This document shows, one piece after another, positions 19,778-30,260 of a stretch of 64,000 nt of DNA. This DNA comes from Planktothrix tepida PCC 9214 (lineage in GTDB: Bacteria; Cyanobacteriota; Cyanobacteriia; Cyanobacteriales; Microcoleaceae), in assembly GCF_900009145.1 (NCBI RefSeq), contig NZ_LN889782.1:1433246-1497245 (forward strand). The letters are read 5' to 3'. The notes below the pieces were generated by a model, which was not told where the DNA came from, did no database searches, and was given only the letters and a program-made list of their open reading frames with translations. Within the stretch, counting starts at the first letter, position 1, and each line of letters starts with the position of its first letter. Made by a program: the position numbers and the translations under genes.

Positions 19778-21067
19778 TTATAAACTCCAGTAGTGAATAT
19801 GAGAGGGAATTAAATTAGGGTTAAGAACAGACTTGACATCCATCACGACACCTTTATTTCCTAAACACCCTAATAGTTTTTCTACAGGAAGGTCGAGGTA
19901 AGTTTGATGGGGAACCGCAAGAATCATCGCATCTAGGTTCAATAAATCTGACCACTTTACTAATGTCATAGCATATTCTTGTTGAGTGGCAACAGGGTCA
20001 GCTAAGGGGTCATGAATTAACGGTTGAATTCTAAATTGATGAAGTTCCGCCACAATATCAGGAACGCGACTATTGCGTAAATCAGGTACATTTTCTTTAA
20101 AGGTTAATCCTAAAATTCCAACTTTTGCACTAGGAATGGAACAATTGGCTTGAATTAACAGTTTAACTAAACGTTGAGCTAAATAAGTTCCCATGCTATC
20201 ATTAATCCGTCTTCCCGCTAAAATAACTTGGGGATGATAGCCTAATTCTTCGGCTTTTGCCGTTAAATAATACGGGTCAACACCAATACAATGACCGCCA
20301 ACTAATCCAGGGGTAAAAGGTAAAAAGTTCCATTTGGTTCTAGCTGCATTTAATACATCTTGAGTGCGGATATTTAAGTGATCAAAAATAATAGCTAATT
20401 CATTCATTAAAGCAATATTTAAGTCTCGTTGAATATTTTCTATCACTTTCGCTGCTTCTGCAACTTTAATCGAAGGTGCACGATAAACCCCGGCTTGAAT
20501 AATGCAGCTATAAACTTCAGTAATACTATTTAAGGTGGGTTCATCTTCTCCTGAAACCACTTTCACAATTTTTTCTAAGGTATGGGATTTATCCCCCGGA
20601 TTAATTCGTTCTGGAGAATAGCCTAATTTAAAATCAATTCCTTGTTTTAAACCAGAAATTTGGGCTAATATTTTACCACAGATTTCTTCTGTTACCCCTG
20701 GATAAACCGTTGATTCATAAACAATAATATCTCCGGGTTTTATTACTTTTCCTAAGAGTTCAGAAGCTTTAATTAAGGGGGTTAAGTTGGGTTGATTATT
20801 TTTATCAACAGGCGTGGGAACTGCTACAATATAAAAGTTACAGTCTTTTAAATCTTGAAGAGATGCTGTAAATTTTAAAGATGAATTTTTTAACCGTTCT
20901 GGGTCAATTTCTCCGGTAATATCAATTCCTTGTTTTAAAGCTTCAACTCGTTCTAGTTTAATATCAAATCCAACGGTTTCGGGGAAAACTTCAGCAAAGG
21001 CAATGGCAACAGGTAAACCTACATATCCTAAACCAAGAACAGCAATGCGATGGGAATGAGAATACAT
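19778..21067 (-). CDS. UDP-sugar 6-dehydrogenase, TviB/WbpO-like
   Basis: NAD-dependent two-step oxidation of a UDP-hexose to the uronic acid. The dinucleotide loop GLGYVGLP (12-19), the central [10 protein letters not shown], and the catalytic Cys260 in [12 protein letters not shown] are intact. The [10 protein letters not shown] and [11 protein letters not shown] wording is closer to the TviB/WbpO group (UDP-N-acetylhexosamine substrates) than to classical UDP-glucose dehydrogenases, so UDP-GlcNAc or UDP-GalNAc is the likely substrate. It is first in a tight pair with the epimerase. Confidence 0.92.
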
Positions 21068-21096
21068 TATGATTTGAAAGATAAAAGATTAGGGGA

Positions 21097-21921
21097 TTAT
21101 GACATCGAACAAGAATTAATCACGTCACCCGCCGTTCTAAAAGTATACCCTAATTGTTGTAACCAATATAGTAAACAATTTAGGGTTTTTAAGGCTGAAC
21201 CTTGTTGACGAGTATACCATACTTTTGCTCCCCAGGGAATTGATAAATCCTCGACGGAATAGGCTGGAATAAAATCAAAGGGGTGCATATAAACTTGAAC
21301 AATAGGCGGAAGGGGAGAAACTGAGGATAACAGTTGAATTAAGGATAATTGAAATAAATCAATCCATAATAACCCCATCGGTAATGGAATTAAGGGTAAA
21401 CTATTAACGGGAATTTCCCAGATATTATCTTGTAAATAGGGTTCAATTGGAACATTTTGATTATTAAACCGAGAAGGCATTTTTCCAGCAAAAACCGAGG
21501 AATCATACTCATAATTAGTTTGTTTTAAATACTGATATAATCCTTCAGGAATTCGAGCTTGAGGCGCACGAAATCCTCGTATTTTTTGACCTGTATACTC
21601 TTCTAAAATCGCTTTTGATTTTGCTAATTCTTTGATAATCTCATCTTTTGATAGTTCAGGCATTTTTCGATGGGTAAAACCATGAGAACCGATTTCAAAT
21701 TTTTTTTGAATCGAAATATTAATTTCTTCTTGAATATAGGGAACAATTTCTCCATTAATAAATAAAGTTGCGGGGCATTGATATTGATTTAGAATCTCAA
21801 AAATCTTCGGTAAACCCACTTTAACTCCTCGAATTGTTTCTGTAGAAGCGGGAAGTCTTCCTCCCCAGTCCGTTTCAACATCAATGGAAATAATTGCTGT
21901 TTTAGATAATTTTTGATTCAT
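21097..21921 (-). CDS. Polysaccharide deacetylase (NodB-like, CE4)
   Basis: A 274-residue protein. An SIDVETDWGG motif (Asp14) and GSHGFTHRKM (His80, His84) give the metal triad of carbohydrate esterase family 4, and RGFRAPQ is the conserved Arg motif. There is no signal peptide, so it would act in the cytoplasm or on a membrane-bound intermediate. Within the sugar block it could N-deacetylate a lipid-linked or nucleotide-linked acetamido sugar. A dispersed palindromic repeat separates it from the GT2 gene upstream. Confidence 0.85.
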   Translation of the reverse strand: MNQKLSKTAIISIDVETDWGGRLPASTETIRGVKVGLPKIFEILNQYQCPATLFINGEIVPYIQEEINISIQKKFEIGSHGFTHRKMPELSKDEIIKELAKSKAILEEYTGQKIRGFRAPQARIPEGLYQYLKQTNYEYDSSVFAGKMPSRFNNQNVPIEPYLQDNIWEIPVNSLPLIPLPMGLLWIDLFQLSLIQLLSSVSPLPPIVQVYMHPFDFIPAYSVEDLSIPWGAKVWYTRQQGSALKTLNCLLYWLQQLGYTFRTAGDVINSCSMS

Positions 21922-22000
21922 GATTTTATCCTCCTAACTCTGTAAGGGCGGGGTTCTCCCGCCCCTACGTTTTCTGACCCAGGGTGGGCGAACCTCGCCC

Positions 22001-22924
22001 CTACATCTGTTTCATTTCTCGACGAATTGCTGATAATTGATCCGCTAATATTCCATAGAAAAAGATTATGATTCCTGATAATAATATAATCACATCTCGA
22101 TCCGCTAGGTTATCTTCTAATATTATGCCTGAAATCGAACTAATTAAACCTGCAACAATTAAAAATAAACTGACGGGTAAAAATACTCTTAAAGGGGCAA
22201 ATAACACCACAATTCTAATAATTAACAAAATGGTATTTAATCCATCTCTAACAATTTTAACTGAACTGGGACGACCCACTCGTTGATTAATAATAATCGG
22301 AACCCACTGAATTAACCACCCATTATTAATTAAGGCAATGGTTGTTGTGGTACTAAAGGAAAATCCATCGGGGGCAAGGTGCATACAATCAAAAATTGCT
22401 TCTCGTCTCATGACTCTTAAGCCCGAATTTAAGTCAGGAATCTTCCATCCTGTCACCCAATTCGCTACCCATTTTAAGATTAATTTTCCAGGTTTTCTTA
22501 AAAATGGAACAGGTGAATTATAACGAGTTCCTATCGCAACATCTGCATCGCCTAACGCCATTAATAAACTCGCTAATTGTTCAGCATCGTGTTGACCATC
22601 AGCATCTGCAATGGCAATTAATCCATATTTTGCTTTACGAATTCCTGTTTTTAAAGCCGCACCATAACCCCGATTTCGACCCTGACGAATGACTTTTGCT
22701 CCCGCTTGCTTTGCCTTTTCTGCTGTTGAATCCGTTGAACAATCATCAACCACTAAAACCTCAAATTCGCCTCCAGTTGGTTTCAAGAGGTTAATCATTC
22801 CCGTCACAACCGTTGCAATTGCGGCTTCTTCATTAAAGGCAGGAATGACTAAAGACAGTCCTTTTCCTTCCGCTAAGGTTGTTTGAATTGCCGTTGTTAA
22901 CTCTCCATCCACCACTTGATACAT
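22001..22924 (-). CDS. Glycosyltransferase family 2, polyprenyl-phosphate sugar synthase type
   Basis: An N-terminal GT-A domain with LVIPAFNEE, VVDDCSTDST and ADADGQHD motifs, followed by two membrane helices at the C-terminus. This resembles dolichol/undecaprenyl-phosphate mannosyl- or glucosyltransferases that load a sugar onto the lipid carrier. The stop codon TAG is provided by the edge of a dispersed palindromic repeat (21981-22005). It is divergent from the membrane protein at 23022, a GT-C candidate that could use the lipid-linked sugar. Confidence 0.9.
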   Translation of the reverse strand: MYQVVDGELTTAIQTTLAEGKGLSLVIPAFNEEAAIATVVTGMINLLKPTGGEFEVLVVDDCSTDSTAEKAKQAGAKVIRQGRNRGYGAALKTGIRKAKYGLIAIADADGQHDAEQLASLLMALGDADVAIGTRYNSPVPFLRKPGKLILKWVANWVTGWKIPDLNSGLRVMRREAIFDCMHLAPDGFSFSTTTTIALINNGWLIQWVPIIINQRVGRPSSVKIVRDGLNTILLIIRIVVLFAPLRVFLPVSLFLIVAGLISSISGIILEDNLADRDVIILLSGIIIFFYGILADQLSAIRREMKQM

Positions 22925-23021
22925 ATCGTTTATCTGCTGAATTTCTCAACCTATTGTATTATCTGAAAGGATCAGACTCGGATTTCGGGTCAATTATATC
23001 TGATTTTGGATCAATTTTTAG

Positions 23022-24728
23022 ATGCTAGTATCCCGTCTCCAGAAGTTTTTAACCGCCCCAGAAGATCATCGATTTAGCCCTCGAATGATCTTTTGGTTGA
23101 CCTTGAGTCTAGTTTTCTCCATTAGTTTTGCCATTCCGCCTTTACAAAAAGCTTTCAGTGGAGAATATTTAATCATGGATGATGCCCGACAACATCTATT
23201 TTGGATGCAACGGTTTGTTGATCCTGATTTATTTCCTAATGATTTAATTGCTGATTTTTATCAATCCATTACGCCTTCGGGTGTGAGTGGATTTTATCAT
23301 TTGATGGCAAATTTAGGGATTAATCCTCTGCTTTTAAATAAGATTTTACCTTTATTTTTAGGATTATTAACGACTCTTTTTTGCTTTGGGATTTGTATTG
23401 AACTTTTACCTGTCCCAACGGTTGGTTTTATTGGGTCTTTATTGTTGAATCAAAATCTTTGGTTACATGGGGAATTAACAACGGCTGTTAGTAGCGGTTT
23501 TGCTTATCCCGCGTTTCTATCTTTTCTCTATTTCTTGTTACGTCGATCTCCTCTGGGCGTGGGAATTTGTATGGCAATTATGGGGAATATTTATAGCCCC
23601 TTAATGTTAGTTGCTTCTGGGGTTTTAATTTTGCGGTTAATTCAGTGGGAAAAAGGGAAACTGCAATTTTCTAATAATCGTCAGGATTATATCATTTCGG
23701 CTGTTGGTTTAGGGGTTGCAACCTTAGTGATTATCCCTTATTTTTTCTCTACTTCTGAATATGGCCCGACCATTTCAGCCCAAGAAGCTAAAACGATGCC
23801 GGAATTTTTAGATAAGGGAAGAACAGCATTTTTCTATAGCAATAGGGGGTTAAATTTTTGGTTTAAAAATAGTCGCAGTGGCCTTAAAATTTCCCTGAAT
23901 CCGCCTTTAGTTATATTAGGATTTTTCTTACCAATTTTGTTCCGATTTCCCCGTCAGTTTCCGTTGGTGGAAAAAATTAGTTCTAAAATTAATATTCTGC
24001 TGTATTTAATCCTAACATCTATAGGGTTATTTGCGATCGCCCATCTCTTATTGTTTAAGTTATTTCTTCCCAGTCGCTACACCAGTCATAGTTTCCGCAT
24101 CATTTTAGCGATTTCAACAGCAATTTTTTTAATTGTTGTCTTAGATGGGATTTTTCAAGCTACTCTTAAACAAATTATTGCTTTAGCATCAACGGTTGTA
24201 TTTAGTTTTGTGCTAATTTTTTATCCGTTTTTTATTTGGGGAAAAGCTTTTCCACGAACTGCTTATACCATTGGAACAGATCCAGCAGTTTATCAGTTTT
24301 TACAACAACAACCGAAAGATACTTTAACGGCTTCTTTATCCTTAGAAGCAGATAATTTACCCATTTTTTCTCAACGTCCGGTTTTAGTTTCCTGGGAACA
24401 CGCTTTACCGTATCAAAAGGGATATTATCGTCAAATTAAACCTAGGGTTTTAGATTTAATTTTTGCCCAATATAGCCCCAATTTAGACACAGTGAAACAG
24501 TTTATTCAGAAGTATGGCGTTGATTATTTTCTGATTGATCAAAAAGCTTTCAGTCCTGAATATATGACCGAGAATGTTTGGTTTAAACAATGGCCAGATC
24601 AAGGAAAACAAGCCTTAAGTCAACTTCAAGGAAAACAACAACCGATCCTGTTACAATCGTGGAATCGTTGTACTATCTATCAAAATCAACTCTATCGTCT
24701 GGTAAAAGCAGATTGTCTCATCAAATAA
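23022..24728 (+). CDS. Polytopic membrane protein, possible GT-C glycosyltransferase
   Basis: 568 residues with about ten to twelve hydrophobic segments and a soluble C-terminal part of about 150 residues. An acidic pair in MDDARQH lies in the first external loop (about residues 51-57), the position of the catalytic Asp in GT-C enzymes that use polyprenyl-phosphate sugars. I do not recognise the family. It is divergent from the lipid-carrier GT2, which supports a shared pathway. The GT-C assignment is inference from topology and the DD motif. Confidence 0.7.
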   Translation: MLVSRLQKFLTAPEDHRFSPRMIFWLTLSLVFSISFAIPPLQKAFSGEYLIMDDARQHLFWMQRFVDPDLFPNDLIADFYQSITPSGVSGFYHLMANLGINPLLLNKILPLFLGLLTTLFCFGICIELLPVPTVGFIGSLLLNQNLWLHGELTTAVSSGFAYPAFLSFLYFLLRRSPLGVGICMAIMGNIYSPLMLVASGVLILRLIQWEKGKLQFSNNRQDYIISAVGLGVATLVIIPYFFSTSEYGPTISAQEAKTMPEFLDKGRTAFFYSNRGLNFWFKNSRSGLKISLNPPLVILGFFLPILFRFPRQFPLVEKISSKINILLYLILTSIGLFAIAHLLLFKLFLPSRYTSHSFRIILAISTAIFLIVVLDGIFQATLKQIIALASTVVFSFVLIFYPFFIWGKAFPRTAYTIGTDPAVYQFLQQQPKDTLTASLSLEADNLPIFSQRPVLVSWEHALPYQKGYYRQIKPRVLDLIFAQYSPNLDTVKQFIQKYGVDYFLIDQKAFSPEYMTENVWFKQWPDQGKQALSQLQGKQQPILLQSWNRCTIYQNQLYRLVKADCLIK

Positions 24729-24832: not shown

Positions 24833-27364
24833 ATGTTAAAAAAAAGTTTAATTAATCTCGGAATTTTACCAATTTTTTTATTTAGTAATTTTACCTTAAT
24901 TTCTCTCAAAAATCAACCTCCGACCTCGGTTGAAAGTTATAAACCTGATCCAGCAACATTATTTAACCAAGGAAAACAATATTATCAACAAGGACAATAT
25001 ACTCAAGCTGCTGATATTTTACAACAGTCTATTTTAGGGTTCTCTCAACAAGGAGATGTTGTTAATCAAGCGATCGCTTTAAGTAATCTATCATTAGTTT
25101 TACAACAATTAGGACAATGGGAACAAGCCGAAAAAGTTCTACAGGAAAGTTTGGCTTTAATTCAAGATTTATCCTTTCCTAAAAAGCCTTTAATTCTAGC
25201 TCAAATTTTAGAGATTCAAGGTCAATTAGAACTTACCCAAGGACAACCTGAACAAGCCATTAAAACTTGGCAAAAAGCGTTTAAACTTTATGCGGAAGCG
25301 GGAAATTTGTTAGGAGAAATTACTAACCAAATAAACCAAGCAACGGCTTTACAAACCTTGGGACTCTATCGACAATCTTTAAAAATGTTAACAGAAGTTA
25401 ATGAAACCCTGAAATCTCAACCGGATTCTTTAATTAAAGTAACGGCTTTATTAAGTTTAGGCAATACTTTAAAAAAAGTGGGAGATTTAACAACGGCTCA
25501 AGCTGTTTTGCAAGAAAGTTTAGAGTTAGCAAAAAATTCTAATTATTCTCAAGTTTTAAGCCAAATTTATTTAAGTTTAGCCAATCTTAATCGCGCTCAA
25601 AATAATTCTGATGTCGCTTTAGAAAATTATCAAAAGGCAGTAAAAACAGCATCGAATAGTTTAGAAAGACTGCAAGCTTTGATTAATGAATATAGTTTAC
25701 TGATTGATTTAAAACAAGACAAAGAAGCAGAAACTCTATCGAAGGAAATTCAAGATTCTATTTCTCAAATTCCCGTGAGTCGGAGTTTGGTTTATGCTAT
25801 GGTTAATTTTACAAATTCTTTAATAAAGTTAAATTCAAGTTCTAATGATTCTAAAATTATTGATTTATTAAATACTGCAATTCAATCTTCTAAAACTTTA
25901 ACAGATCTCCGTTCTGAATCTTACGCTTTAGGAAGTTTAGGGAAATTTTATGAACAAAATCAACAACCCTTAGAAGCTCAGAAATTAACTGAACAAGCGT
26001 TATTAATTGCTCAATCTATTAATGCTTCTGATATTGCTTATCAATGGCAATGGCAACTAGGAAGACTTCTAAAACAACAAAATCAGAAAGACCAAGCGAT
26101 CGCTGCTTATACTGAAGCGGTTAATACTTTAAAATTTCTCAGAAAAGACTTAGTTGCGATTAACCAAGATGTGCAATTCTCCTTTCGAGAAAGTGTAGAA
26201 CCTGTTTATCGAGAATTAGTCGATTTAATTTTACAATCTCCGACTCCCGATAACCTAAAAACGGCCCGTGAATTGATAGAATCCTTACAACTTGCTGAAC
26301 TCGATAACTTTTTCCAAGAAGCGTGTTTAGATCAAGAAATTAAACCTCAAGAAATTGATCAAATTGATCCCAATGCAGCCATCATTTATCCGATTATTTT
26401 AGCCAATCGTTTAGAAGTTATTCTCTCAATTCCGGGTCAACCTTTACGCCACTATTCTACCGAAATTTCTCAACAACAGGTTGAAAATACAATTCGTCAA
26501 TTACGACTGTCTTTTCAACCGATATTTTCTACAAAAGAACGATTGGAATTATCTCAAAAAGTTTACGATTGGCTCATTCGTCCGGCTGAAGCTGATCTCA
26601 AAAATAGCTCAATTAAAACCTTAGTCTTTGTTTTAGATGGTTCTCTGCGAAATGTGCCAATGGCTGCCCTTTATGATGGCAAAAATTATCTAGTTCAAAA
26701 CTATAATTTAGCTCTAACTCCAGGTTTACAACTCTTAGCTTCTCAATCTTTAAAACGAAATCAAATTAAAGCCTTAACTGTTGGGTTAAGTGAAGCTCGT
26801 CAAGGGTTTTCGGCTTTACCTGCCGTTGCGTCTGAACTTGAAAAAATTCAGGCAGAAGTTCCGACAAAAGTTTTATTAAATCAACAATTTACCCGTGAGG
26901 CTGTTCAACAACAAATTCAAGAAACCCCCTTTCCCATTGTTCATTTAGCCACCCATGGACAATTTAGTTCTAAAGCGGAAGATACTTTTTTATTAACCTG
27001 GGATAGTCGAATTAATGTTAAGGATTTAGATGATTTTCTCAGCCGTCGCCAACGGGGAGAACAAAATCCGGTAGAATTATTAGTCTTAAGTGCTTGCGAA
27101 ACCGCAACAGGAGATCAACGGGCTGCTTTAGGATTAGCGGGTGTAGCGGTGCGTTCTGGGGCACGGAGTACCCTAGCGACGTTATGGCAAGTTAACGATA
27201 CCTCTACCGCCTCCTTGATGGCAGAATTTTATCAAGAATTAACTCAGCAACAAATCAGTAAAGCCGAAGCTCTGCGTCAAGCGCAGTTAAAGCTGTTACA
27301 ACAGCCAAAATATCAAGATCCCTATTATTGGGCTCCCTTTGTTTTGGTGGGAAATTGGCAATAG
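24833..27364 (+). CDS. Exported TPR protein with C-terminal CHAT (caspase-like) protease domain
   Basis: The N-terminus MLKKSLINLG plus a hydrophobic stretch (to about residue 25) looks like a signal peptide or anchor. Tetratricopeptide repeats cover about residues 40-440. The last 280 residues are a CHAT domain with the catalytic His in HLATHG (about residue 708) and the Cys in LSACETATG (about 755), both intact. CHAT is a caspase-like Cys protease fold. GGAGG-type ribosome binding site before ATG 24833. It is the first of three co-directional genes (DUF928 and CHASE2 cyclase follow). Confidence 0.93.
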   Translation: MLKKSLINLGILPIFLFSNFTLISLKNQPPTSVESYKPDPATLFNQGKQYYQQGQYTQAADILQQSILGFSQQGDVVNQAIALSNLSLVLQQLGQWEQAEKVLQESLALIQDLSFPKKPLILAQILEIQGQLELTQGQPEQAIKTWQKAFKLYAEAGNLLGEITNQINQATALQTLGLYRQSLKMLTEVNETLKSQPDSLIKVTALLSLGNTLKKVGDLTTAQAVLQESLELAKNSNYSQVLSQIYLSLANLNRAQNNSDVALENYQKAVKTASNSLERLQALINEYSLLIDLKQDKEAETLSKEIQDSISQIPVSRSLVYAMVNFTNSLIKLNSSSNDSKIIDLLNTAIQSSKTLTDLRSESYALGSLGKFYEQNQQPLEAQKLTEQALLIAQSINASDIAYQWQWQLGRLLKQQNQKDQAIAAYTEAVNTLKFLRKDLVAINQDVQFSFRESVEPVYRELVDLILQSPTPDNLKTARELIESLQLAELDNFFQEACLDQEIKPQEIDQIDPNAAIIYPIILANRLEVILSIPGQPLRHYSTEISQQQVENTIRQLRLSFQPIFSTKERLELSQKVYDWLIRPAEADLKNSSIKTLVFVLDGSLRNVPMAALYDGKNYLVQNYNLALTPGLQLLASQSLKRNQIKALTVGLSEARQGFSALPAVASELEKIQAEVPTKVLLNQQFTREAVQQQIQETPFPIVHLATHGQFSSKAEDTFLLTWDSRINVKDLDDFLSRRQRGEQNPVELLVLSACETATGDQRAALGLAGVAVRSGARSTLATLWQVNDTSTASLMAEFYQELTQQQISKAEALRQAQLKLLQQPKYQDPYYWAPFVLVGNWQ

Positions 27365-27493
27365 ATTTGTAACTCTGAAGATAGGTTAATAAAATTAAAG
27401 TATTAGTGCATCATCCAAGACCCGTGATCTAACAGGAGTCCTCTTGACTCTAGTTCAATTCTTTCTGAGTATTCTTTGGAGACTCATACTTTT

Positions 27494-28285
27494 ATGTTTC
27501 ACAACCGTTTGCACCAGCACTGGATTAGCCTATCTCTCCTGACCCTTGTGGGGGGAGCTTTTGTTCCGCAACTGTCCGTTATGGCTCAACCAACCCGTTC
27601 AGAGGGAATCCAAATTAGCATGGCTTTTGAACCCCCACCAGGGGAAGGAATGCCCAGCCGCACTGCCGGAGGAGGGTCTCGCGGTCAAACTCTGGCTGCG
27701 ATTCAAACCGCACCCCCCTTAATGGCCTTAGTTCCGGCATTTTATTCTCAAACCAATCGCCAAGAAACGGATATTAAAGGATTGACGGTTGCGGCTACCC
27801 CGACATTCTTTTTCTATGTTCCTGCAATTCCGGCAAAAGAAGCCGCTTTTAGCTTAAAAGATGAAAATAACAACGATATTTACCAAACTCGTTTAACGCT
27901 TCCCAATCAACCCGGTATCCTCAGTATTGCTCTACCAAAAGATACTCCTCCGTTAAAAATTGGTCAAACCTATCGTTGGTCATTTGGGGTGATTTACAAC
28001 GATGAAAACGCGCAGGAACCTAAAGTTGTGTTTGTAAGCGGGGAAGTCACCAGAACAGAACCCGATGCCACGTTAACAGCTAAACTACAACAAGCTAAAC
28101 CCCTAGAACAAGCTAAAATTTATGCTGAAAATGGAATTTGGTTTGAAAGTTTAGCCACTTTAGCCCAACTGCGTCAAAATCAACCGATGGATGAAACATT
28201 AACCAAGCAATGGAATGAACTGTTACAATCCGTTGGTTTAGAATCCATTGCGAATCAACCGTTTGTGAATGCGCTTGAGAACTAA
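27494..28285 (+). CDS. DUF928 secreted protein
   Basis: The start is ATG 27494, preceded by GGAGA at 27478-27482; an in-frame TTG at 27476 is less likely. A signal peptide ends near LSVMAQ. The mature protein has the family features: a GGGSRG stretch, then a LMALVPAF phrase and a beta-rich core with TFFFYVPAIP. DUF928 is mainly cyanobacterial and of unknown function, predicted periplasmic. It lies between a CHAT-TPR gene and a CHASE2 cyclase. Confidence 0.85.
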   Translation: MFHNRLHQHWISLSLLTLVGGAFVPQLSVMAQPTRSEGIQISMAFEPPPGEGMPSRTAGGGSRGQTLAAIQTAPPLMALVPAFYSQTNRQETDIKGLTVAATPTFFFYVPAIPAKEAAFSLKDENNNDIYQTRLTLPNQPGILSIALPKDTPPLKIGQTYRWSFGVIYNDENAQEPKVVFVSGEVTRTEPDATLTAKLQQAKPLEQAKIYAENGIWFESLATLAQLRQNQPMDETLTKQWNELLQSVGLESIANQPFVNALEN

Positions 28286-28301
28286 TTAAGGTTAAACTCG
28301 A

Positions 28302-30260
28302 ATGAAGTATGGAGTTATGAAACAAAAACAAACGGTCTTCAGACTTCATACTTTCAGATGGAAATCTTCTGGGCAATGGCTGAAGTTATTTCGTTATTTA
28401 TGGTTAAGTCCTGTGATAACGGCTTCAGTTATTGCCCTGCAAAGTACAGGTTTTTTACAACTTTTAGATTGGGCAACCTTTGATCAATTTGTGCGGTGGC
28501 GCCCCCTAGAACCTCCTGATTCCCGGATTGTCATTGTTACTATCGATGAACCGGATTTGAAAAAGCTAGGGCAATGGCCGATTCCTGATGCTATTTTAGC
28601 ACAATTAATAGAAAAAATAAAGCTTCAAAAACCGATTGCGATTGGATTAGATATTTATCGGAATTTACCTGTTCAACCGGGACATGAGGATTTAATTAAG
28701 GTATTTAAAACAACCCCGAATTTAGTGGGTGTAGAGAAAGTTGTTGAGGATCAAAATCGAGCTTCCATTGAACCGCCTCCGATTTTAAAAGATAAAAATC
28801 AAGTGGGGGCGGCGGATTTAATTTTAGATGCAGATGGCAAAATTAGACGGGCATTATTATCTATAAAACCCCCAGAACGTCCTACGATTTTAAATTTAGG
28901 GGCGACCGTTGCTTTACTTTATTTACAAACTCAAGGGATTATCCCTAAAATGACTGCGAATCAGCAAGTCAAATTAGGAAAAGCTGAATTTACACGATTT
29001 ACAGAAAATGATGGCGGTTATGTTCGCGCTGATGATGATGGCTATCAAATTTTATTAAATTATCGGGGATCGCAGGATAATTTTCATAAAATTTCCATGA
29101 CTCAAGTGTTAAATAATGAGATTCCACCGGATTTTTTTCATGATAAAATTGTATTCATTGGCCCCTTTGCTCAAAGTTTAAATGATCTATTTTTTACTCC
29201 TTATACCAGTAATTTATTTAGTATTAATGATCGTACACCAGGGGTAATTATTCATGCTAATATTGCCAGCCAACTGATTAGTAGTGCTATCGATGGACGC
29301 ACCTTAATTCATGTTTGGTCAGATCGGACAGAATGGTTTTGGGTGTTTCTTTGGTCAACGGTTGGTAGCAGTTTAGGATGGATTTATGGGGGAACCCGTT
29401 GGACAGTTTATTGGTTGATTTTAGCCAGTGGAGGTTTAATTATTATTTCTTATAGTGCTTTTATTAGTGGTTGGTGGCTTCCCTTAGTTTCTCCCTTATT
29501 AGCATTAGTCAGTTCTGGGATGGTGGTTACGGCTTATATTGCTAATGTTGAACGTCAAGATCGAAAAATGGTGATGACGTTATTTCAACGGTATGTTACC
29601 CCCAAAATTGCGGAAACAATATGGCAAAATCGAGAGGATTTATTACAAAAAGGTCAAATTTTAGGGCAGAAAATGATAGCAACTGTCCTGTTTACGGATA
29701 TTAAAGGTTTTAGTACCATTGCTGAACGCATGGAACCCGCAATGTTAATGACTTGGTTAAATGAATATATGAATGCCATGGCGAATATTGTGTTTGAACA
29801 TGATGGGGTTGTTGATAAATTTATGGGGGATGCTATTATGGCAGTATTTGGAGTTCCTATTCCTCGAAATAGTACCCAAGAAATTGCTCAAGATGCAACT
29901 TCTGCGGTATCCTGTGCCTTAGCGATGGGAGAAAAATTGCGAGTGCTTAATCAACATTGGCAACAACAAAATCAACCCCTAATTTCTATGAGAATTGGAA
30001 TTGCTACCGGAGTTGTCGTTACTGGAAGTTTAGGCAGTTCTCAACGGATGGAATATACAACTTTAGGCGATAGTGTTAATATTGCTGCGCGTTTAGAAAG
30101 TTATGATAAATCCTTTTATAGTGAGGGAACCTGCCGGATTTTAATGAATGAAGAAACCCATCAACAAATTAATGGCAAGTTTCCCACTCGTTACGTCGGT
30201 CGTGTGCAATTATATGGACGTCAACAGTTAATTAATATTTATCAAGCAATCAACGATTAA
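28302..30260 (+). CDS. CHASE2-domain class III nucleotide cyclase (probably adenylate)
   Basis: A first membrane helix (about residues 28-50), a CHASE2 sensor domain outside the membrane (about 55-330), three further helices (about 340-420), then a class III cyclase domain (about 455-650). Metal-binding motifs VLFTDIKGFS and VDKFMGDAIMAVFG and the transition-state motif LGDSVNIAARLE are intact. The Lys in VDKFMGD suggests ATP rather than GTP as substrate; this is not proof. It lies 16 bases after the DUF928 gene. An ATG at 28317 preceded by TGGAG is an alternative start. Confidence 0.92.
   Translation: MKYGVMKQKQTVFRLHTFRWKSSGQWLKLFRYLWLSPVITASVIALQSTGFLQLLDWATFDQFVRWRPLEPPDSRIVIVTIDEPDLKKLGQWPIPDAILAQLIEKIKLQKPIAIGLDIYRNLPVQPGHEDLIKVFKTTPNLVGVEKVVEDQNRASIEPPPILKDKNQVGAADLILDADGKIRRALLSIKPPERPTILNLGATVALLYLQTQGIIPKMTANQQVKLGKAEFTRFTENDGGYVRADDDGYQILLNYRGSQDNFHKISMTQVLNNEIPPDFFHDKIVFIGPFAQSLNDLFFTPYTSNLFSINDRTPGVIIHANIASQLISSAIDGRTLIHVWSDRTEWFWVFLWSTVGSSLGWIYGGTRWTVYWLILASGGLIIISYSAFISGWWLPLVSPLLALVSSGMVVTAYIANVERQDRKMVMTLFQRYVTPKIAETIWQNREDLLQKGQILGQKMIATVLFTDIKGFSTIAERMEPAMLMTWLNEYMNAMANIVFEHDGVVDKFMGDAIMAVFGVPIPRNSTQEIAQDATSAVSCALAMGEKLRVLNQHWQQQNQPLISMRIGIATGVVVTGSLGSSQRMEYTTLGDSVNIAARLESYDKSFYSEGTCRILMNEETHQQINGKFPTRYVGRVQLYGRQQLINIYQAIND

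Follow-up and report, generated by a model that had tools for sequence, protein, structure and literature searches.

The ligands of CHASE2 receptor domains are called unknown in passages of PMC10581220 and PMC5192318, and pairs formed by a CHASE2 receptor and an exported partner are already known. In Magnetospirillum, the gene for the periplasmic protein MtxA is followed by a CHASE2-adenylate cyclase gene (PMC4439547), and the BiofilmReg operon of Burkholderiales is described as encoding a response regulator, a LysM-FecR protein with a predicted signal peptide, a CHASE2 histidine kinase and a DUF4136 protein (PMC5192318). Here we compare such systems with an intact, co-directional gene triad at positions 24833-30260 of a 64,000-nucleotide stretch (the window) of the 6.78 Mb genome of the cyanobacterium Planktothrix tepida PCC 9214 (contig NZ_LN889782.1). 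On the + strand, it encodes a tetratricopeptide repeat (TPR) protein with a CHAT domain, a DUF928 protein and a CHASE2 receptor with a class III nucleotide cyclase. Our findings favor, with moderate confidence, an outside-in signaling module in which exported DUF928 partners with CHASE2, CHAT acts upstream and a cyclase provides the output at this locus.

Like the DUF928 module, the MtxA system places an exported Ig-like plus TPR protein beside a CHASE2-cyclase gene; unlike it, it belongs to another phylum, and CHAT, DUF928 and two-partner secretion (TPS) are not named in the available passages of PMC4439547. BiofilmReg shares an exported partner gene directly upstream of the CHASE2 receptor and differs in that this partner is LysM-FecR, with no CHAT in the available description (PMC5192318). 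We found LysM-FecR before CHASE2 in a Paraburkholderia plasmid (Pfam) and in Cupriavidus metallidurans (by eye), and neither the CHAT nor the DUF928 protein of the window matched LysM or FecR in Pfam. Sinorhizobium meliloti CyaK is a receptor-like cyclase that answers a plant signal, according to passages of PMC5498481. This CHASE2-like cyclase is similarly preceded by a frame that looks, by eye, like FecR plus TPR, although its partner belongs to another family and no CHAT was seen among the listed open reading frames (ORFs). The outer-membrane protein NsrA, encoded upstream of CyaK, is said to be needed for signal perception.

Two cyanobacterial reports touch on parts of the module. In Nostoc punctiforme, the adjacency of CHASE2 and DUF928 was noted in a WD40/CHASE2/DUF928 cluster for which signal transduction was proposed; there it was taken as the WD40 cluster of one species among seven surveyed, and the available passage describes no general pairing, CHAT or TPS (PMC5587647). 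No other paper in the literature searched mentioned DUF928. A Trichodesmium metacaspase with a CHASE2 domain, listed in 2010, joins a caspase-like domain to CHASE2 as the CHAT-CHASE2 fusions described below do; unlike them, it is a single protein in a metacaspase survey whose text, as available, does not mention DUF928 (PMC2853523). Our literature searches, which mostly left subscription papers outside, returned no report combining CHASE2, the CHAT domain and cyanobacteria, nor the CHAT domain with two-partner secretion or with hemagglutinin and cyanobacteria. The original prediction had known of no description of such a system. This stands for the CHAT/DUF928/TPS form, of which the literature searched holds no description, but not for exported-partner/CHASE2 pairs, which have the precedents above; two features are undescribed in that literature: a caspase-like protein that is apparently exported and the TPS exoprotein that accompanies some members of the family.

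The triad is real, conserved and coherent. Its Pfam scores lie far over the cut-offs (CHAT 216 bits, plus TPRs; DUF928 217, cut-off 26; CHASE2 248; Guanylate_cyc 89.5), and its genes are separated by gaps of about 130 bp (CHAT/DUF928) and 16 bp (DUF928/CHASE2). A terminator scan of the triad placed no terminator-like site between the genes; both detected sites fall within coding sequence (CHAT and DUF928), and shuffled sequences contain more. All three genes have dN/dS ratios of 0.11-0.17 (nine comparisons: three genes, three of six close loci). The closest named DUF928 matches, 83-75% identical, belong to an uncultured Oscillatoriales and to Planktothrix or like genomes (L188-L193), and all six have the same triad beside the same upstream epimerase. 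Three co-directional genes with an intact CHAT His/Cys pair and intact cyclase metal motifs were what the original prediction had described, and this description is confirmed by the ORFs, by the scores and by the presence of His708, Cys755, Asp466 and Asp510 (Table 1). Wherever the CHAT domain could be aligned, its catalytic pair is complete, namely in all 78 DUF928-linked genes (of 80) and in all 22 CHASE2-fused domains (of 23). From the profile match and the His/Cys pair, the window CHAT is predicted to be a caspase-like protease.

Table 1. Coordinates of the triad and of related chains (window positions unless a contig is named).
Feature	Position	Strand	Details and basis
TPR-CHAT gene	24833..27364	+	843 aa; ORF list, Pfam
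TPRs of TPR-CHAT gene	about 24953-26128	+	Pfam
CHAT domain	26546-27355	+	Pfam
CHAT catalytic His708 (LATHGQ)	26954..26956	+	alignment, 78/78 DUF928-linked CHAT genes
CHAT catalytic Cys755 (LSACET)	27095..27097	+	alignment, 78/78 DUF928-linked CHAT genes
DUF928 gene	27476-28285, first ATG 27494 (263 aa)	+	ORF list, Pfam
DUF928 domain	27668-28264	+	Pfam
CHASE2 receptor with class III nucleotide cyclase	28302..30260	+	652 aa; ORF list, Pfam
CHASE2 domain, expected periplasmic	28416..29369	+	Pfam, structure model
Three predicted helices C-terminal to CHASE2, taken as membrane helices	29322..29558	+	model residues 341-362, 367-388, 396-419
Cyclase domain, adenylyl cyclase type: Asp466, Lys506, Asp510, Thr587, Asn593, Arg597	29679..30230	+	
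TPS secretion domain with C-terminal CHAT, one frame	G000:C26:404395-408060, C56:586723-595563		this genome

The pairing of DUF928 with CHASE2 recurs widely. Of 146 genomes sampled from the phylum, 48 contained DUF928, and every one of these belonged to the same class. We read 120 regions from the best part of 226 DUF928 matches, together with eight regions of this genome and the window, calling domains with profiles built in scripts from Pfam-confirmed members. In 128 of these 129 loci we counted 140 DUF928 genes, which had CHASE2 within 4 kb in 84 cases, CHAT (fusions to CHASE2 excluded) in 49 and a TPS exoprotein in 38. At the genome level, 31 of the 37 genomes with DUF928 loci read here had DUF928 and CHASE2 no more than 4 kb apart. 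Where CHASE2 was nearby (84 DUF928 genes), an unfused CHAT gene also lay within 4 kb in 35 cases and a TPS gene in 25, and the order of the CHAT, DUF928 and CHASE2 genes was shuffled among loci. Co-occurrence beyond close relatives had been set beforehand as the test of the proposed system, and these counts and shuffled orders bear it out.

CHAT (35 matches) and CHASE2 (11) are abundant in this genome, which has eight DUF928 genes, and a chance neighborhood of three common families might be suspected; we give this a negligible probability. Across 17 genomes (this one and 16 DUF928-positive genomes selected for few contigs, with the fragments DUF928 G099:C1:1637704 and TPS G027:C1:2038946 omitted), CHASE2 lay within 3 kb of 44 of 76 DUF928 genes against 0.78 expected and a maximum of 4 in 1000 random placements, a procedure that ignores genome relatedness and whose ratios are not probabilities. 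In our view, a stronger point than these ratios is that the pairing recurs in several families and with differing gene orders. As a control, we read 44 of the 61 CHASE2 loci that lack DUF928 within 8 kb (40 of 56 from the other genomes, 4 of 5 from this one), measuring distances from CHASE2 instead of from DUF928 as in the survey; none had CHAT within 4 kb and one had TPS with TpsB, and one of the 44 (L239), like L062 outside the sample, carries a divergent DUF928-like gene. Set against the 35 and 25 of 84 above, these figures show that CHAT and TPS accompany receptors of the DUF928 form rather than CHASE2 generally.

Six of the eight DUF928 genes of this genome adjoin CHASE2. Four of its loci are triads with CHASE2-cyclases, ordered CHAT-DUF928-CHASE2 (twice), CHAT-CHASE2-DUF928 and CHASE2-DUF928-CHAT, and in two others DUF928 comes after a CHAT-CHASE2 fusion; behind a third such fusion (C45) lies a divergent DUF928-like gene (21 bits, cut-off 26). 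Annotated plasmids contain similar rows. For instance, a Nostoc sp. TCL26-01 plasmid has DUF1822, CHASE2 and DUF928 followed by CHAT on the opposite strand, and Planktothrix agardhii plasmid p1 has CHASE2 and DUF928 followed by CHAT and ShlB/FhaC on the opposite strand.

The receptors that accompany DUF928 differ in what they carry behind or before the sensor. Among 84 CHASE2 genes of the survey loci, the output was a cyclase in 25, an N-terminal CHAT in 23, a histidine kinase in 16, GGDEF-EAL in 5 and SpoIIE in 1, and 14 had no recognized output or only a fragment of one (types called by script profiles, representatives checked by Pfam). On a FastTree phylogeny of 115 CHASE2 rows (77 linked to DUF928, 38 other), DUF928 linkage required 11 changes against 32 after shuffling, and output type changed at least 12 times among the 77 linked receptors. 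Retention of DUF928 while the receptor output is exchanged suggests a place for DUF928 in the periplasmic half of the receptor system.

Sequence divergence points the same way. The DUF928 and CHASE2 distances of 77 adjacent pairs from 30 genomes correlated at 0.72 (mean 0.18 and maximum 0.36 in 1000 within-genome shuffles), a value that co-inheritance alone could explain. With near-identical pairs removed, DUF928 correlated at 0.76 with CHASE2 and 0.50 with the cyclase of the same gene in 35 cyclase pairs (partial correlations 0.67 and 0.17), and at 0.91 with CHASE2 and 0.59 with the same-gene kinase in 21 kinase pairs (partials 0.87 and 0.01). In 51 triads filtered likewise, the partial correlations were 0.77 for DUF928-CHASE2, 0.29 for DUF928-CHAT and 0.06 for CHASE2-CHAT. 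DUF928 divergence tracks CHASE2 more closely than it does the output domain of the same protein, and CHAT tracks CHASE2 mainly via DUF928, as if DUF928 stood between the two. If these were merely co-inherited, co-regulated envelope genes with no physical DUF928-CHASE2 contact, covariation between neighbors could stem from shared descent, linked genes moving together; however, the same-gene cyclase or kinase is equally linked and covaries much less, the pair persists through reshuffled gene orders and swapped outputs, and the same pairing with an MtxA fold exists in another phylum. We consider this account quite unlikely.

The DUF928 protein of the window has a clear signal peptide, and a good structure model predicts an Ig/Fn3-like sandwich plus four helices. 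After realignment, the first structural match of this model was periplasmic MtxA of Magnetospirillum, and the model has the features of an MtxA-type Ig-like plus TPR fold. In the receptor, a structure model predicts helices on both sides of the CHASE2 domain; the hydrophobicity threshold is passed after CHASE2 by segments at residues 368 and 391 and not by the N-terminal segment. By its Pfam matches, the protein is a CHASE2 domain with a cytoplasmic output (Guanylate_cyc) behind it. Alignment to solved cyclases revealed both metal-binding Asp residues, the Asn/Arg pair, Lys506 and Thr587, positions whose roles we take to be the usual ones, with Lys plus Thr marking ATP as the substrate, and the product of the window cyclase is probably cyclic AMP (cAMP). 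Among 46 aligned CHASE2-cyclases of DUF928 loci, however, the Lys is replaced in 18 (Glu in 16, Asp in 2) and the Thr by Val in 24 and by Ile in 8, so the product may differ between copies of the module. The suggestion that the signal is turned into cAMP accordingly suits the adenylyl-type residues of the window and does not extend to the whole family.

We propose that cyanobacteria have an outside-in signaling module in several paralogous copies, of which the triad is one. Because of the linkage, the covariation and the MtxA parallel, DUF928 would be dedicated to the CHASE2 receptor as its extracytoplasmic partner and would bind it. TPR-CHAT, which has an export-like N terminus in most copies, would act upstream, most likely by cutting or holding DUF928, or the TPS exoprotein where one is present, and this action would alter how DUF928 engages CHASE2. 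CHASE2 would then relay the change via the membrane helices to the output of each copy, here the class III cyclase, whose catalytic residues are seen and whose activity would probably yield cAMP. That CHAT or DUF928 may "process or present" a signal was already part of the original prediction; its system-level idea holds, with binding and cleavage as steps that we infer, while TPS exoproteins, output swapping and the MtxA precedent had been overlooked. A small exported protein beside many CHASE2 receptors is a concrete candidate partner for a receptor family without a known signal; with its structure predicted and a similar pair published from another phylum, the CHASE2-ligand question becomes testable by binding. 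Such a partnership would also assign DUF928 its first function and put caspase-like proteins on the outer side of a bacterial signaling route.

Several observations weigh against this proposal. CHASE2, CHAT, TPS and TpsB are all missing within 4 kb of 31 of the 140 DUF928 genes; in the 17 genomes, CHASE2 lies within 8 kb of 49 of 76 DUF928 genes and not of the other 27, and DUF928 within 8 kb of 49 of 110 CHASE2 genes and not of the other 61. MtxA does not appear among the top 50 matches that Foldseek itself ranks for the DUF928 model, no sequence likeness to MtxA was detected, and no chain named MtxA is among the 14 PDB matches of the DUF928 profile (E up to 10). Furthermore, deletion of mtxA is reported to give no phenotype under standard conditions (passages of PMC4439547). 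The covariation may come partly from common descent and differing domain rates, and since the cytoplasmic domains differ in rate and were swapped, the contrast within receptors is support rather than proof. No TPS gene lies within 8 kb of any of the eight DUF928 genes of this genome. Finally, five of six orthologues of the window CHAT fail our signal-peptide heuristic, which points to an atypical signal sequence in this CHAT subfamily.

This simple heuristic of our own, applied to ORFs other than those starting at a region edge, was positive for 151 of 188 DUF928 proteins, 65 of 80 linked CHAT proteins, 95 of 682 other ORFs and none of 22 CHAT-CHASE2 fusions; since TPS proteins are exported by nature and it catches just 31 of 56 of them, many true signals are missed. 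The membrane helix preceding CHASE2 is more positively flanked on its CHAT side in 21 of the 22 fusions, and the fused CHAT should therefore lie inside the cell. The window CHAT passes the heuristic with only a weak N-terminal hydrophobic segment, and, given its failing orthologues, an uncleaved anchor or no export at all is possible. The claim that the first two proteins have signal peptides is thus clear for DUF928 and doubtful for CHAT.

The window TPR-CHAT could then be cytoplasmic, or a membrane-anchored protease like HetF, outside any exported branch. Besides the weak signal sequence of its subfamily, this would be in keeping with HetF, a cyanobacterial membrane CHAT protein reported to cleave PatU3 (passages of PMC8406250 and PMC12288457), and that cleavage offers a precedent for protease activity of a cyanobacterial CHAT protein. 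HetF resembles the window CHAT as a cyanobacterial CHAT protein, itself membrane-bound and with protease activity, and differs as a separate gene in this genome and in that CHASE2 is unmentioned in the main text of PMC8406250. We nevertheless regard this placement as very doubtful: N termini are export-like in the 65 of 80 linked CHAT genes, CHAT is also found in TPS chains, and the best match of the HetF equivalog model here is another gene, C56:463934-466357 (623 bits, under the cut-off of 1200). The window CHAT does not match that model at E up to 0.001, and CHAT-CHASE2 fusions score about 30 bits on it. On the TPR-CHAT model of Craspase Csx29, the window CHAT reached 20.4 bits against a cut-off of 300; no search for CRISPR loci was made.

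The module also includes TPS genes in some members of the family. Of the 76 DUF928 genes (17 genomes), 18 have a TPS domain within 8 kb (1.8 expected) and just 3 within 3 kb (0.74 expected, simulated maximum 5), and the link is for that reason looser than the one with CHASE2. In four-gene rows, the CHAT gene often stands between TPS and DUF928; TPS, CHAT, DUF928 and CHASE2 share one strand in, for example, Microseira wollei (L231 and, with one extra gene between, L194). The window has the three-gene form and not this four-gene form. A TPS domain and a C-terminal CHAT also occur in a single chain, twice in this genome (1221 and 2946 aa) and in four other loci, one of which (L211) adjoins DUF928 and a CHASE2-cyclase, which suggests that CHAT occurs as cargo of two-partner secretion.

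These chains, the excess of TPS within 8 kb and a recurring context of DUF928 with ShlB-type and transglutaminase-type genes would also suit a different role, in which DUF928 and CHAT serve a TPS surface-protein route as maturation or quality factors, and CHASE2 only monitors that route without binding DUF928 directly. We find this unlikely: TPS is rare within 3 kb of DUF928, 59 of the 84 DUF928 genes near CHASE2, the window included, have no TPS within 4 kb, and DUF928 covaries with CHASE2 above the output domain or CHAT. Returning to the outside-in module, a more far-reaching version can be put forward tentatively. It would be an extracellular proteolytic cascade in which exported CHAT cleaves the TPS protein or DUF928, and DUF928, as a ligand or co-receptor with an MtxA fold, switches the output-swapped CHASE2 receptors, whose outputs would be cyclic nucleotide, phosphorelay, cyclic di-GMP, phosphatase or a second, internal caspase-like protease. 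If true, this would make DUF928/MtxA-like and FecR proteins the long-sought CHASE2 partners across phyla.

Further observations concern neighboring genes. At about 255615-260915 of contig C8, a third TPS-CHAT chain of about 1825 aa may exist, judged from equal open-frame lengths only. Divergent DUF928-like, exported-looking proteins are encoded behind CHAT-CHASE2 genes at L062:7552-8307 (Pfam score below the cut-off) and L239:4948-5673 (no Pfam match, seen by eye). In five loci (L055 by Pfam; L083, L091, L113 and L133 by clustering), DUF928 is clustered with a ShlB/FhaC-type and a transglutaminase-core gene, a second DUF928 context. DUF1822 genes lie within 4 kb of DUF928 in 16 survey loci and precede CHAT-CHASE2 fusions at L050:6383-7330, L062:10770-12140 and elsewhere. 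In the window, four genes at 19778-24728 sit between the epimerase and the triad, which adjoin each other in Planktothrix; they encode a sugar dehydrogenase-like protein, a polysaccharide deacetylase, a glycosyltransferase and a 568-aa protein with no Pfam match, and we read the stretch as a local insertion or rearrangement. Lastly, CHASE2 genes without DUF928 stand beside exported-looking FecR in L238 and L253 (Pfam), and alike in L243 by eye, making FecR a possible alternative partner for cyanobacterial CHASE2 receptors of that kind.
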